DNA of 64,000 nt from Methanosarcina acetivorans C2A (lineage in GTDB: Archaea; Halobacteriota; Methanosarcinia; Methanosarcinales; Methanosarcinaceae), in assembly GCF_000007345.1 (NCBI RefSeq), contig NC_003552.1:2294001-2358000 (forward strand), given 5' to 3'. Numbering within the stretch: the stretch's first letter is position 1; each line of letters begins with the position of its first letter. Both the position numbers and the translations under genes were made by a program. Below, in pieces: positions 5,526 to 47,670 of the stretch. The notes under the pieces are model-generated. The model searched no databases, was not told where the DNA came from, and saw nothing but the letters and a program-made list of their open reading frames with translations.

Positions 5526-6782
5526 TCAGCTTAGGTTTGCACATGTGAAGGCAGAAAGATCCAATTGTTTTTGCTTGCATCCATTGTTTCCGTAAAACTT
5601 GCATTCCCATACCTTTTTATCGCTTTCTGGAACTGCAATTACTAGAATTTTTTGAGGTCTTGTGGTACCAACATATATAATTCGTTTTTCTTCATTCTCA
5701 TTTATATTTTCGTTTATAAGATCAACATATTTTTTATTTCTGTAAGCTTTTTCTTTTAAAATCAAGAGAACAGCTTCAAAAGTTCTTCCTTTTACCGAAT
5801 GAACTGTTCCTAAAGTATAATTCTCAGTTTCCACTTCTTTATCTACGAAGATTTGCCCAAATTTTATTTCGTTAGTACCTTTCTTAATTTTAATTTCAAA
5901 ATCACTTATGCCGAAAAAACAGTCACCCCTAATAACCTCGTTTGCAAGATCCACCCACTCTTTCAGACTTACATCAGTACTTGGTAACCTTGCAAGAAGA
6001 TCAAATAATCCTATTCGCCATTTCTTAAAATCAATTTGCTCAATGAACTCCTTTAGCTCATCATTTGAAACATACTCTTTCCCGTTTTTTATCGCGAAAA
6101 TAGTTTTTTCAAGTAATCTAAAAGACTCTTTATAATCTTTCTTATCAAACAGATATTTGCTTTTGCTTATATTCCTATAGTGAATTCTATTTACATCCAT
6201 CTCTTGTTTGCCATTATTTCTTATTTGTTCTTTCCAAGGTTCCTTTCTAACAAAATCACCTTGATTTCTAATTTCGGTTAAAATATCTTTACCTCTAACC
6301 AAGATCGCTACTTTTTCTTTACTAATTGAAATGCCTTTAATTATACAGATTCTTATGAATTCTTCAATTAGTCTATTTGTCTCTAAGTTCAGGGATTTAT
6401 TTACGTCATATCCCCAAATTTCTGGTTTAAAATTAAAATCTTTGATTTCTTCATTACAAGCGGTTGAAACATAATCAGTTGAGACTATTTTGTCTGTAAA
6501 AGCACAAATCTCCTTTGAACTTCTCCAATTTTCATAAAGATTTAGCGTTTCCCATTCTATTTCTTTTCTTGTAAATACTTCCGGATTCGCTGTTCTCCAT
6601 TCGTATATTGCTTGATTTGGATCCCCTATTAGCATAAGCCTTTCTAATCCATTTTCCAACAAAAGTTCAAAAATTTTCATTTGGACATCAGAAGTATCTT
6701 GAGCTTCATCTATAAGAAATATAGGAAATCTGTATACAATAGCTTTTGCAATGTCTGGATACTTTTCCAGCAACTTCATCAC
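5526..6782 (-). pseudogene. gajB: gajB C-terminal part (UvrD-like helicase), separated from its N-terminus by a MITE
   Basis: This open stretch of 418 residues carries the second half of a superfamily-1 UvrD-like helicase: motif II FLIDEAQDTSDVQ (about 22-34), motif III LMLIGDPNQAIYEW (about 49-62), motif V TVHSVKGRTFEAVLL (about 330-344) and motif VI YVGTTRPQKILVIA (about 371-384). The homologous frame continues upstream to 6914, covering SYSDSSHFSNC and LTQADANFFV, where the MITE copy of AATGGAAATT ends. Motif I and Ia are on the separate piece at 7031-7504. Deleting 143 bp joins the two into a 611-residue GajB next to gajA. As it stands no full helicase can be made, so the Gabija system is probably inactive. 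Confidence 0.8.
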
Positions 6783-28890: not shown

Positions 28891-29029
28891 ATTACCAATC
28901 CAGTGAAAAAATTAAAATTCTCTTATCGTTTTTGCAATATTTCTTTTCTCGTTAGTAAGATTCCCTATCTATTTTTGCTGTTTTCGGTTTATAGGGCTTG
29001 CAGAGAGCTTACACTGAAACACAAGGTAT

Positions 29030-29119
29030 GAGGTAGAGGGTTCATAGTTACATCCTACCTTGAGCCGCCTCCTCCGGCTTCGCCTCCCCCGTCGCCTCAA
29101 TTTATGAACTCTCTACCTC
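29030..29119 (-). ncRNA. structured GC-rich element, copy 1 (covarying with 39690-39779)
   Basis: Read on the minus strand, GAGGTAGAGAGTTCATA pairs with TATGAACCCTCTACCTC (one G-U-type mismatch) as an outer 17-bp stem. Inside, TTGAG pairs with CTCAA around a GC-rich core containing GGCGACGG, GGCGAAGCCGGAGG and GTAGGATGTA. The copy at 39690 keeps the core but has different bases in both stems that still pair (see finding). This compensatory pattern suggests a functional RNA or a hairpin mobile element. Confidence 0.55.
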
Positions 29120-33235: not shown

Positions 33236-33638
33236 GGTAAAAAATCTGCAAGCTTTCTCATATCTGTTTTCGCTCTCGAGGGCTTGTAGGGCTTTAGAAG
33301 GGCTTGCAGCACTTATATTGGTGAGTACTAGATTCTGCTTGTCTGTAATCTCTGATCACGAGCTGATGTAAGGGCAGAATCGGTTTTCCTAATATCAATT
33401 GATTTCTGATCATAGAAATAGTTCTGAGATGTTACTTACTTTTGAGAATAAAAATGGTTTTGGTATGAACTTATGATGTAAATAAACAGGAAGAGATTGA
33501 CTTCAGTAAATGTGCTTATGTGATAATAGAATGCCAAAAAACGCTAAGTATCAGATACTCTCAAATATCAATTAGGCTGTATTATTAAATCTCTTCAATT
33601 TAATAGAATTACCTAACTTTTCGAAGACCTTCAACAGA
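33236..33638. other. intergenic region with a relic of the 29-kb element flank
   Basis: 403 bp downstream of the IS481. The words AGGGCTTGCAGCACTTA and GTTTTCGCTC near 33265-33320 resemble the flank of the structured element near 28985-29010. No gene. Confidence 0.4.
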
Positions 33639-39461: not shown

Positions 39462-39689
39462 ACTTGAAGCAAAATAGAATCTTTTTGATTATTTGCACAA
39501 GAAAGGTGCCATTATCAGTCTTAAAAGTTCAGGATTGGGTTTATTTTGAAATAAGTCATTGAACGATCAAATTGCGTTGTTTGTTATTCTAGGACTTCTG
39601 AAGGGCTGATAGGCAAGCAGTTCGGCAGGTTAAAGCTGTCCGCACTGCGATAACTCTTTATATCTCTCTTCCTTCTCTCCGAGTTAGAT

Positions 39690-39779
39690 GTCACAAAATT
39701 CATATCGTGAGTGGCGACGGAGGCGGAGCCGAGGGCGGTACTCACCGTAGGATATATTTATGAATTTTGTGCCCGTGAC
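39690..39779 (+). ncRNA. structured GC-rich element, copy 2
   Basis: CACAAAATTCATA (39692-39704) pairs with TATGAATTTTGTG (39759-39771) over 13 bp; inside, GTGAGT pairs with ACTCAC around a core GGCGACGGAGGCGGAGCCGA then GGGCGG, followed by GTAGGATATA. The core matches copy 1 (29030-29119, minus) while both stems differ but remain paired. A TATA-like TTTATATC lies about 30 bases upstream (39656-39663), so transcription could begin at the stem. Confidence 0.6.
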
Positions 39780-40001: not shown

Positions 40002-40150
40002 CCTGCTTTCGGCAGGTAACTTGTTTTTTTCGTAATATTTTTACTGATAGCGTTTTTGCTAGAAAACACATTATTCCTGATACTAGACATTATTGCAAAA
40101 ACGACTCATTGTTTATATATGCCGTGAGATTTGGGTCATATGTTAACCAG
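40002..40150 (-). ncRNA. candidate small RNA, copy B
   Basis: The minus strand aligns over all 149 bases, without gaps, with 19929-20077. It has the same upstream word GGTTAACATATGAC, a TATATAA box and the 3' hairpin CCTGCCGAAAGCAGG with a perfect 5-bp stem. The middle hairpin of copy A is not kept. It lies inside the iteron region. Confidence 0.5.
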
Positions 40151-40184
40151 TTTTGAACCCAACATATATTACATAATGTTTGAA

Positions 40185-40243
40185 AAACGCCATCATTAAA
40201 AATACTTAAAATCTAATGTCGACCTGCCGACTATAGGATAGAA
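40185..40243 (+). repeat. truncated copy C of the candidate small RNA element
   Basis: GAAAAACGCCATCATTAAAA (from 40183) through CCTGCCGACTATAGG matches the 3' part of copy A on the plus strand, back to back with copy B. The 3' hairpin is weakened (CCTGC against ATAGG). Confidence 0.5.
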
Positions 40244-42368: not shown

Positions 42369-42400
42369 AGGATCTATGGAAAAACCATATGGAATTTTAT

Positions 42401-43997
42401 GAGTCTTTTTAATTTTTTCTGGTTTTTCTTCAATCTCAAGACAACCACAAAATTTTATCCCAATTTGAGCAAATCAATTCACTCATTTAAAAATGTTGAT
42501 TCATTCACACAAGCATCCACCAAAATTTTCCAAATTGTGGAACTATTTTTGTGGGAATTTCCGACAGCTACAGCTATAAGCCATCAAGTTTAAGAACTAA
42601 TTATTCTCCAATTCTAGCATTATCCATATTGGAATCTTGCTCTCATTAAAGGTGAGAAACCTTTCCATTTTCCAGTGCTGAAACACCGTTTGTTGAAAAA
42701 AGTAAATAGATTGTAACAAAAATTAGTTAGTCCATTATCGGTTTTGAATGACCTTACTTTGTCTACTATATCACATATCAAAGAAAATATTTGTTCCATT
42801 GTATTATCTGTCTCAGGTGTAAAACCTTTTTTCAAGAAGCTCACATTCTTGCTGAAAATCTCTTCGGCATAAGAAATCGCTTTATGAGACGCTTCAGAAA
42901 GTTCAAGATCAGAGTTAAATTCTCGTATCTTCTGAATATGCGCAACAGCACTGATAACCGTATCAGAAAGTATCAATTGAGATATCTCATTGTAGGTAAT
43001 CTTATCGTTATCTGGAATCTCTTCAACAGAACTGAATTCCTCATAATACCTCTTACTAACGTTTTTTAATTGATGAAACACACAAAAAGAATGAGTCACT
43101 TCAGGAAAGACCATTTTTACGGCTCCAATGATCGCTTTATCCTCATCAGAAACAATCTTTTTGATTTTATCTTCAGGAAATCGGTTCTTTATTCGTATAA
43201 AAAGAGGCATCAGAGCCTCAATTGTTGGTAACCTCTCAGTTACTTCAAAATCTAAAATGACCTTCTCTTTGGTAGCAACAACGTAAACAGATTTATATCG
43301 CATTTTTTTCCATTCTTTCTTTGTGAGTTTCGTTCCAATAAATTCTTCAAGCTTTTTTTTCCATCCATTCTTGATCCAATTCCCATCAACATACAATGTT
43401 TCTTCAAAGCTAACTCCTTGGTTCAAAAGTTCTTGCTTTGAAAGTTTTGCTAGTTTCTGTTCATATAACCACAATGAAGTGGGACAAGGAGCTCTTCCAC
43501 AGACATTTATTACTCCTTCTGTATATGTTTCCCCAATTCGCCGAGAATTGTGCAGACTGCATCGTCCATCGTATCTGACATTTATTTGTGTATCATAATA
43601 TTCAGAACTGTAATTTGCAGAACCCTGAACACCAATAACCCGATCATGATAATGTTTCTTACAAGTGGGACAAAGCCAGTATGTAACATTGAGAGATATA
43701 GTGCCGTAACGTGATATAATAAAACGAGTGTGATGAGAGTTAACATGTAATTTACTTCCACAACTATCACACTGAGTAGGGGAGAATATAGAGAACATAG
43801 GATAGTATCGATTTTCAACCAAAACTTTTGGCAAAGGAATTATTATTTTGCCGTCAACTATCGTTTTTATCATTGATTTATCTATTGCAATGTTTCCTTT
43901 TCCCATAAATAGAAAAAATATATCAATATAATTAAAATTTTATTGTTTTGCACGATATAGAGGGAAAACGAAAAACCAGAAAATAATAAAAAGTCTC
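42401..43997 (-). mobile_element. 1597-bp MULE/ISNCY-like insertion sequence, copy 1
   Basis: Ends are about 28-bp inverted repeats: GAGTCTTTTTAATTTTTTCT on the left and GAGACTTTTTATTATTTTCT read inward from the right, both followed by GGTTTTTC. Target duplication AATTTTAT at 42393-42400 and 43998-44005. It splits the DUF927 gene. An almost identical copy of the same length lies at 46074-47670. Confidence 0.92.
42620..43906 (-). CDS. transposase of the 1597-bp element, copy 1
   Basis: 428 residues: an N-terminal zinc-finger-like region (CDSCGSKLHVNSHHT, CPTCKKHYHD) for DNA binding, then a Mutator/IS256-like catalytic core with ETLYVDGNW, KIVSDEDKAIIGAVKMVFPE and the C-H motif SFCVFHQLKNVSKRYYEEF, and a Glu-containing C-terminal helix region. 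An 8-bp target duplication fits the MULE/IS256-like or ISM1-like groups. It differs from the second copy at only three residues (R/Q, V/I, V/A), indicating a recent duplication. Confidence 0.85.
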   Translation of the reverse strand: MGKGNIAIDKSMIKTIVDGKIIIPLPKVLVENRYYPMFSIFSPTQCDSCGSKLHVNSHHTRFIISRYGTISLNVTYWLCPTCKKHYHDRVIGVQGSANYSSEYYDTQINVRYDGRCSLHNSRRIGETYTEGVINVCGRAPCPTSLWLYEQKLAKLSKQELLNQGVSFEETLYVDGNWIKNGWKKKLEEFIGTKLTKKEWKKMRYKSVYVVATKEKVILDFEVTERLPTIEALMPLFIRIKNRFPEDKIKKIVSDEDKAIIGAVKMVFPEVTHSFCVFHQLKNVSKRYYEEFSSVEEIPDNDKITYNEISQLILSDTVISAVAHIQKIREFNSDLELSEASHKAISYAEEIFSKNVSFLKKGFTPETDNTMEQIFSLICDIVDKVRSFKTDNGLTNFCYNLFTFFNKRCFSTGKWKGFSPLMRARFQYG

Positions 43998-44687
43998 AAT
44001 TTTATAAATGTCGTATTCTGTATTTCTGAAAATTTTTCTTGCGGAAAATACCGTCCGAACCAACTGTTCTTTCTTCTCACCAGACAGCCCTGGACAGGTT
44101 GAGTCCAGATATTTCATGAATGCATTACTATCATTAGCGAATTCTTTATTTAGTTTGATATTTATTCCATATTCTTTATTTATGTATGTGGTTAAATCTT
44201 CAATGCTCTTTTCTGGATTCGTTAGGTCACATACGGGTATTGGATTACGTTCTTCAGGTGTGGGTTTTTTGAGTTTTATGTCTTCATCGGTTTTCAGTCT
44301 TGCACATTGACCGCCTTTTTCCCAAACTAGAAGTTTATAATTTAGTATGGTTCTTTCCTGTTCTATGAGTTCCCTTGTTTGAATAAATTTTTTATCCACA
44401 ACTCCCCTTGACATTAAATAATCTCTAAGTGCTTGTGGATCGCTTGTTATTTCTCCTGTAAGCTCAATATCGTCCCTATTAAGATATTTTCTTACTGAAT
44501 CAGTTAAATCGGTAGCTAAGAAATCATCCAGTATTCTTAATTTCTCATTACCTTTCATTCCCTTTTTATAGACAATAACATAATTTTCATCATCAGTTGT
44601 GGATTCAGTCGGCGTGACCTCAGGTTCAGAAGTCTCAATTTCAGAGCTGTTTTCAAGCTCTACATTTTTAAGTTCATTTTCTTTCAT
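43932..44687 (-). pseudogene. N-terminal part of the DUF927 protein, ended by the IS
   Basis: The first about 229 residues (MKENELKNVELENSSEIETS through EYDIYKI) belong to the original gene; the last 22 (ETFYYFLVFRFPS...) are read through the IS end. The region is acidic at first, then has two similar helical segments (SVRKYLNRDDIELTGEITSD and YINKEYGINIKLNKEFANDS) that look like repeated small modules. GGTGAG lies before the ATG at 44687. The gene was last in a series with the ribbon-helix-helix and 123-residue genes upstream. Confidence 0.7.
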
Positions 44688-45925: not shown

Positions 45926-46073
45926 ATCTAGTTCTTATTTTTATTTTCCATATTTTTTTTGTCTTTTAACAACTATGTTTGATCTTTTAGTTTGCGAATT
46001 TATTCCAATGCTGATCTTACTAAAGCATTAAACAATTATTATTCAATATTAATCAGCAAATATCTTTAATTTT

Positions 46074-47670
46074 GAGTCTTTTTAATTTTTTCTGGTTTTT
46101 CTTCAATTTCAAGACAACCACAAAATTTCATCCCAATTTGAGCAAATCAATTCACTCATTTAAAAATGTTGATTCATTTACACAAGCATTCACCAAAATT
46201 TTCCAAATTGTGGAACTATTTTTGTGGGAATTTCCGACAGCTACAGCTATAAGCCATCAAGTTTAAGAACTAATTATTCTCCAATTCTAGCATTATCCAT
46301 ATTGGAATCTTGCTCTCATTAAAGGTGAGAAACCTTTCCATTTTCCAGTGCTGAAACACCGTTTGTTGAAAAAAGTAAATAGATTGTAACAAAAATTAGT
46401 TAGTCCATTATCGGTTTTGAATGACCTTGCTTTGTCTACGATATCACATATCAAAGAAAATATTTGTTCCATTGTATTATCTGTCTCAGGTGTAAAACCT
46501 TTTTTCAAGAAGCTCACATTCTTGCTGAAAATCTCTTCGGCATAAGAAATCGCTTTATGAGACGCTTCAGAAAGTTCAAGATCAGAGTTAAATTCTCGTA
46601 TCTTCTGAATATGCGCAACAGCACTGATAACCGTATCAGAAAGTATCAATTGAGATATCTCATTGTAGGTAATCTTATCGTTATCTGGAATCTCTTCAAT
46701 AGAACTGAATTCCTCATAATACCTCTTACTAACGTTTTTTAATTGATGAAACACACAAAAAGAATGAGTCACTTCAGGAAAGACCATTTTTACGGCTCCA
46801 ATGATCGCTTTATCCTCATCAGAAACAATCTTTTTGATTTTATCTTCAGGAAATCGGTTCTTTATTCGTATAAAAAGAGGCATCAGAGCCTCAATTGTTG
46901 GTAACCTCTCAGTTACTTCAAAATCTAAAATGACCTTCTCTTTGGTAGCAACAACGTAAACAGATTTATATCGCATTTTTTTCCATTCTTTCTTTGTGAG
47001 TTTCGTTCCAATAAATTCTTCAAGCTTTTTTTTCCATCCATTCTTGATCCAATTCCCATCAACATACAATGTTTCTTCAAAGCTAACTCCTTGGTTCAAA
47101 AGTTCTTGCTTTGAAAGTTTTGCTAGTTTCTGTTCATATAACCACAATGAAGTGGGACAAGGAGCTCTTCCACAGACATTTATTACTCCTTCTGTATATG
47201 TTTCCCCAATTCGCCGAGAATTGTGCAGACTGCATCGTCCATCGTATCTGACATTTATTTGTGTATCATAATATTCAGAACTGTAATTTGCAGAACCCTG
47301 AACACCAATAACCTGATCATGATAATGTTTCTTACAAGTGGGACAAAGCCAGTATGTAACATTGAGAGATATAGTGCCGTAACGTGATATAATAAAACGA
47401 GTGTGATGAGAGTTAACATGTAATTTACTTCCACAACTATCACACTGAGTAGGGGAGAATATAGAGAACATAGGATAGTATCGATTTTCAACCAAAACTT
47501 TTGGCAAAGGAATTATTATTTTGCCGTCAACTATTGTTTTTATCATTGATTTATCTATTGCAATGTTTCCTTTTCCCATAAATAGAAAAAATATATCAAT
47601 ATAATTAAAATTTTATTGTTTTGCACGATATAGAGGGAAAACGAAAAACCAGAAAATAATAAAAAGTCTC
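46074..47670 (-). mobile_element. 1597-bp MULE/ISNCY-like insertion sequence, copy 2
   Basis: Same length, ends and orientation as the copy at 42401-43997. The flanking 8-mers (TTAATTTT and GAATTGAA) do not match, so this copy has lost its target duplication, probably by recombination or deletion. The two copies bracket a 2.1-kb segment as direct repeats. Confidence 0.92.
46293..47579 (-). CDS. transposase of the 1597-bp element, copy 2
   Basis: 428 residues, the same as the product of 42620-43906 except Gln for Arg near residue 90, Ile for Val in the SS-EEIPDND segment and Ala for Val in DIVDK-RSFKT. The zinc-finger-like N-terminus and MULE-like catalytic core are intact, so both copies may be active. 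Confidence 0.85.
   Translation of the reverse strand: MGKGNIAIDKSMIKTIVDGKIIIPLPKVLVENRYYPMFSIFSPTQCDSCGSKLHVNSHHTRFIISRYGTISLNVTYWLCPTCKKHYHDQVIGVQGSANYSSEYYDTQINVRYDGRCSLHNSRRIGETYTEGVINVCGRAPCPTSLWLYEQKLAKLSKQELLNQGVSFEETLYVDGNWIKNGWKKKLEEFIGTKLTKKEWKKMRYKSVYVVATKEKVILDFEVTERLPTIEALMPLFIRIKNRFPEDKIKKIVSDEDKAIIGAVKMVFPEVTHSFCVFHQLKNVSKRYYEEFSSIEEIPDNDKITYNEISQLILSDTVISAVAHIQKIREFNSDLELSEASHKAISYAEEIFSKNVSFLKKGFTPETDNTMEQIFSLICDIVDKARSFKTDNGLTNFCYNLFTFFNKRCFSTGKWKGFSPLMRARFQYG

Follow-up and report, generated by a model that had tools for sequence, protein, structure and literature searches.

The window, the whole 64,000-nucleotide stretch of Methanosarcina acetivorans DNA analysed here, contains two hairpins that share a GC-rich core and have outer stems unlike in sequence, each pairing with its own partner arm. 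Do such paired changes reflect selection on an RNA structure, or do they belong to a palindromic DNA element? The original prediction described the two copies at about 29.0 and 39.7 kb, and both were found there; sequence, fold, and covariance-model match define the two copies listed below.

29030–29119, minus strand: copy 1 of the hairpin element, 90 nt
29103–29119 and 29030–29046, minus strand: copy 1 outer arms
29096–29100 with 29060–29064, minus strand: copy 1 inner stem
29065–29095, minus strand: copy 1 loop
29047–29059, minus strand: copy 1 linker
39692–39771, plus strand: copy 2 of the hairpin element, 80 nt
39692–39704 and 39759–39771, plus strand: copy 2 outer arms
39707–39712 with 39740–39745, plus strand: copy 2 inner stem
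39713–39739, plus strand: copy 2 loop
39746–39758, plus strand: copy 2 linker
39657–39664, plus strand: TATA-like TTTATATC, a candidate promoter read from the sequence

Two copies share a nested-hairpin layout

Both copies consist of an outer arm, 2 nt, one strand of a 5–6 bp inner stem, a loop, the other strand of the inner stem, a 13-nt linker, and the second outer arm. Read on the minus strand from 29119 to 29030, copy 1 contains the arm GAGGTAGAGAGTTCATA, AA, TTGAG, a 31-nt purine-rich loop, CTCAA, the linker GGTAGGATGTAAC, and the arm TATGAACCCTCTACCTC, and its outer arms pair with one A·C mismatch. Copy 2, read on the plus strand, contains the arm CACAAAATTCATA, TC, GTGAGT, a 27-nt loop, ACTCAC, the linker CGTAGGATATATT, and the arm TATGAATTTTGTG, and its outer arms pair perfectly. 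The reported change of the inner stem from TTGAG/CTCAA to GTGAGT/ACTCAC, paired in both copies, can thus be read in the sequence. Compared to copy 2, the loop of copy 1 is longer by 4 nt and its outer stem by 4 bp. The loop centre of both copies is GGC-GRA-GCC within purine-rich GC sequence, and both linkers contain GTAGGATRTA; the unpaired core GGAGGC and the linker GTA are conserved in all copies described below. Predicted folding energies were −33.6 kcal/mol for copy 1 and −28.6 kcal/mol for copy 2 (z about −4 in each case), and the covariance-model match within copy 1 spans 29034–29115. The element has no open reading frame of its own. The TATA box previously placed 30 bases before one copy corresponds to TTTATATC, 28 nt before copy 2. 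A third, decayed flank proposed near 33270 was rejected as a copy, as scanning the entire window with the model, unfiltered, gave no match there and only a short flank motif of the GGGCTTGCAG type is shared.

Other features of the window were also recorded. Beside copy 2, at about 40002–40240, lies a ~238-bp dispersed repeat, probably an active MITE. Several copies in the genome are 98–100% identical, and numerous Methanosarcina species have diverged ones. A pair of almost identical insertion sequences, each encoding a MULE-type transposase, occupies 42397–43998 and 46070–47670 (ORFs 42620–43906 and 46293–47579); their ends are about 98% alike over a 300-nt stretch, and they have similar inverted arms. 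The segment 31429–32154 encodes a 241-aa protein without a Pfam family, with a weak Cas10b profile match (E 9e-4) over residues 159–213.

The element is genus-restricted and low-copy

In the source genome (G000; a single contig of 5,751,492 bases, with the window at 2294001–2358000), BLAST, pattern, and model searches found copies 1 and 2 as the only copies in the 5.75 Mb. We then used a covariance model built from copies 1 and 2 (R1) to search 31 Methanosarcina species, and this two-sequence-seed search, as the original prediction had proposed it, gave matches in three more genomes, one per genome: G007 (E 4e-8), G009 (E 4e-6), and G023 (E 0.1). The G023 match is weak alone, but its position is orthologous to that of the G007 copy. 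A five-sequence covariance model (R2) searched over 186 genomes of the order returned the same five copies only, all of which match R2 by construction. In the source genome the pattern GGCGACGG-N10-40-GTAGGAT occurs at copies 1 and 2 and nowhere else, and it occurs in 0 of 30 other Methanosarcina genomes. Altogether, the four species have five copies, distributed over four intergenic sites that are unrelated to each other. Perfect 13-bp inverted repeats with a 20–100 nt spacer number 1 in the window compared to 0.3 expected in shuffles; such a repeat is therefore unremarkable alone, and significance comes from the core common to both copies and from the homologues.

An Rfam search of the window gave no match at the gathering score, in agreement with the earlier statement that no named RNA family was recognised, and permissive thresholds gave only chance-level matches (E up to 5). 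Pattern scans of IMG/VR and GTDB likewise gave chance-level matches only. The 15 viral matches lack the flanking palindrome and were attributed to chance; the 110 GTDB matches are about the chance number by our estimate, and among the 80 of these 110 pattern-preselected loci that were scored with the model, the best reached 24 and 21 bits (an actinobacterium and Rahnella) and were also taken as chance. We rejected weak model matches in G015 and G016, as well as a 22-nt match recurring in G010 and G008 that is apparently a conserved coding stretch. Copy 2 had no match in plasmids, and copy 1 had none in phages. The element is real, genus-restricted, low-copy, and palindromic, and it is absent from the libraries searched.

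Copies lie at unrelated sites and lack fixed ends

Copy 1 lies between convergent genes, copy 2 is antisense to both neighbouring genes, and a repeat scan detected no mutual similarity between their flanks. In both G007 and G023 the element precedes a TPR gene at the same position, in the same direction as the gene and 14 nt upstream of a conserved TPR promoter block. The intact G009 copy is at another site (L072, 6229–6309, minus strand), 37 nt from a different conserved block. Because these copies are at four unrelated sites, the element was placed repeatedly. At the TPR site of G009, a 21-nt stretch, AACAGGGCACAAAATTCATAA, is identical to the 5' arm region of the G007 copy and is followed by IS200/IS605-like sequence and then by the TPR promoter block. 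We read the 21-nt stretch as a putative remnant of the hairpin element, and the adjoining sequence as IS200/IS605-like from its apparent resemblance.

The TPR promoter block is also present in five other species, where the DNA upstream of it is unrelated and lacks the element; this does not amount to a clean empty site. A search for the element at the TPR site of G000, G006, G008, G014, and G020 gave nothing. No clean empty site defining the element borders was found, and no direct repeat (target duplication) was seen at the borders of the five copies, borders that are not defined by a clean empty site. Beyond the 80 nt, the G007, G023, and G009 copies have common flanks of ~15 nt on the upstream side (around GATTTTTAAACnGG) and ~12 nt on the downstream side (around CCGnnCCTGAG), which could belong to a longer imperfect palindrome, CAGG..CCTG. 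These flanks are absent from copies 1 and 2, indicating that the element ends are not fixed. The inverted-repeat arms span 13–17 bp in copies 1 and 2 and 13 bp in G007, with one mismatch in G009 and several in G023. A search for an autonomous relative with the same ends (GNCACAAAATTCATA, ≤2 mismatches) gave no IS-like pair among the matches listed for G000, G007, and G009. The mobile origin raised in the original prediction thus draws support from the four unrelated sites, but not from target duplications, fixed ends, or an autonomous partner, none of which was found.

Several features were observed near these sites. An intergenic motif of the type TTTTCG..GGGCTTGYAG occurs at 28985–29013 beside copy 1, at 33265–33312 in the window, and at about 1630–1665 of L037 beside the G007 element. 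G009, G000, and G008 share a conserved stretch of intergenic DNA (L072 at about 5825–6192, minus strand; L190; L191) that contains a 12-codon ORF after a strong Shine-Dalgarno sequence (MKVEPPTPYSES / MEVKPPTPYPES), followed by the inverted repeat AACTCTCTGAATAG; the ORF may encode a very small protein or a leader peptide. In the TPR gene (L043–L051), the aligned start codon, after a conserved GGAGG, is ATG in some species and ATA or ACG in others, and is possibly non-canonical or misplaced.

Stem changes are concentrated in copy 1, and the fold has decayed in G023

In the alignment of the five sequences, 91% of stem cells are paired. Both partners have changed in five pairs, more than in column-shuffled or slid controls, although five related sequences make a weak control. 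Four of the five double changes are outer-stem pairs for which the alternative pair occurs in copy 1 alone; the remaining one is an inner pair, U-A or G-C, that varies among copies. The outer-stem double changes of copy 1 form one tract, together with the 4-bp stem extension GAGG/CCTC. Several compensatory changes with a stem extension are the predicted mark of template switching (PMC8794818), and copy 1 resembles template-switch-shaped hairpins in both respects; as its ancestral state at its own site is not available, a single event is what we infer. As all four outer-stem double changes fall in this single tract with its extension, one template switch could suffice to produce them, and the step from covariation to structural selection is weak.

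The G007/G023 pair, the only orthologous one, has no outer-stem double change. In the G023 copy the stems have breaks without compensation, and the predicted fold is no more stable than that of shuffled sequence (z +0.6), compared to z −4.5 for its G007 orthologue. Identity between these genomes is 78% in the element, 87% in the upstream 45 nt, and 95.5% in the downstream 200 nt (partly coding), and the element thus changes faster than the flanking DNA. For copy 1, copy 2, G007, and G009, the opposite strand folded with z-scores at least as favourable; this comparable folding indicates no single transcribed strand and does not favour RNA over DNA. The double-sided stem changes from which selection on structure had been argued are real, but the argument for selection is weak, as the outer changes come from copy 1 alone and the fold is lost in G023. 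Selection on RNA structure is not secured.

Interpretation

We favour, with a probability of roughly one half, a small palindromic, MITE/REP-like dispersed DNA element, whose mechanism of movement we infer, over its main rival, a structured small RNA. The element would be an 80–110 nt non-coding unit with nested hairpins that has spread to several intergenic locations. Its movement would most plausibly depend on a trans-acting transposase that recognises the paired arms, and during replication one arm could serve as template to rewrite the other (template switching), as may have happened in copy 1, keeping the arms complementary. Arm complementarity would then arise largely from template switching and not necessarily from RNA selection. 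Unrelated sites, palindromic arms, the absence of an ORF, low copy number, and decay in place were observed directly. We count for this reading the apparent 5' arm remnant in G009, interrupted by IS200/IS605-like sequence at the TPR site of G007 and G023, and against it the 1–2 copies per genome, which are atypical of MITEs or REPs. That copies 1 and 2 have a conserved core and linker in common could be a sign of function.

Like prokaryotic MITEs (PMC10969869), the element is short and non-coding, has terminal inverted repeats, lies at unrelated intergenic sites, and has no transposase gene of its own; unlike them, it has 1–2 copies per genome, and a target duplication, fixed ends, and an autonomous partner were not found. 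It shares an intergenic hairpin with GTA(G) beside the stem with the GTAG-tagged REP superfamily (PMC3733652). REPs are reported there to be 20–40 bp and high in copy number, in contrast to the 80–110 nt and 1–2 copies of the element. The layouts of retrons, integron attC sites, group II introns, and IS200/IS605 end hairpins appear to be absent from the element, and these candidates were dropped.

The main rival, which we consider unlikely, is that the element forms the body of a structured, trans-acting non-coding RNA of ~80–90 nt with its own transcription, which the outer stem would close and compensatory selection would keep folded. Double-sided pair changes in excess of the shuffled and slid controls, core-strand folding at z about −4 for copies 1, 2, and G007, and the core GGAGGC and linker GTA kept in all copies are consistent with it, but the opposite strand folds equally well, the outer-stem double changes come from one copy, and G023 is broken without compensation. 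TATA-like boxes also precede copy 2 and, as TTTTTAAA, the G007, G009, and G023 copies; however, they stand about 5–9 nt away in four copies and 28 nt away in copy 2, AT-rich 8-mers of this type are common, and no terminator-like end was seen. Slightly less probable still is the narrower proposal of a genus-restricted, dispersed Methanosarcina sRNA whose stems would stay paired despite sequence change and whose purine-rich unpaired core around GGAGGCGAAGCC would be the active part. The M. mazei RNAs sRNA154 and sRNA162 (PMC3177094, PMC3510493) are likewise intergenic and structured and come from the same genus; those RNAs are transcribed and studied, whereas the element is known here from its sequence and is likened to them by description.

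A DNA-level regulatory palindrome, a protein-binding site or insulator beside promoters, is more doubtful again: its spacing and direction relative to the TPR promoter block in G007 and G023 and the proximity of the G009 copy to another conserved block would fit, but in five other species the TPR block stands without the element, and neither the convergent setting of copy 1 nor the antisense setting of copy 2 does. Chance similarity of two hairpins, for which the expectation of about 0.3 such 13-bp inverted repeats per window might speak, is refuted by the homologues that the model matched in G007 (E 4e-8) and G009 (E 4e-6), as well as by the orthologous G023 copy.

Thus, the element, previously unlisted, is also present at intergenic sites in three more Methanosarcina species, and it is more like a tiny dispersed repeat with matched arms than a proven functional RNA. 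If it is an RNA, it would represent a new archaeal RNA family. If, as is likelier, it is palindromic DNA rewritten by template switching, it would caution against taking covariation between two copies of a hairpin as sufficient proof that RNA structure is under selection.
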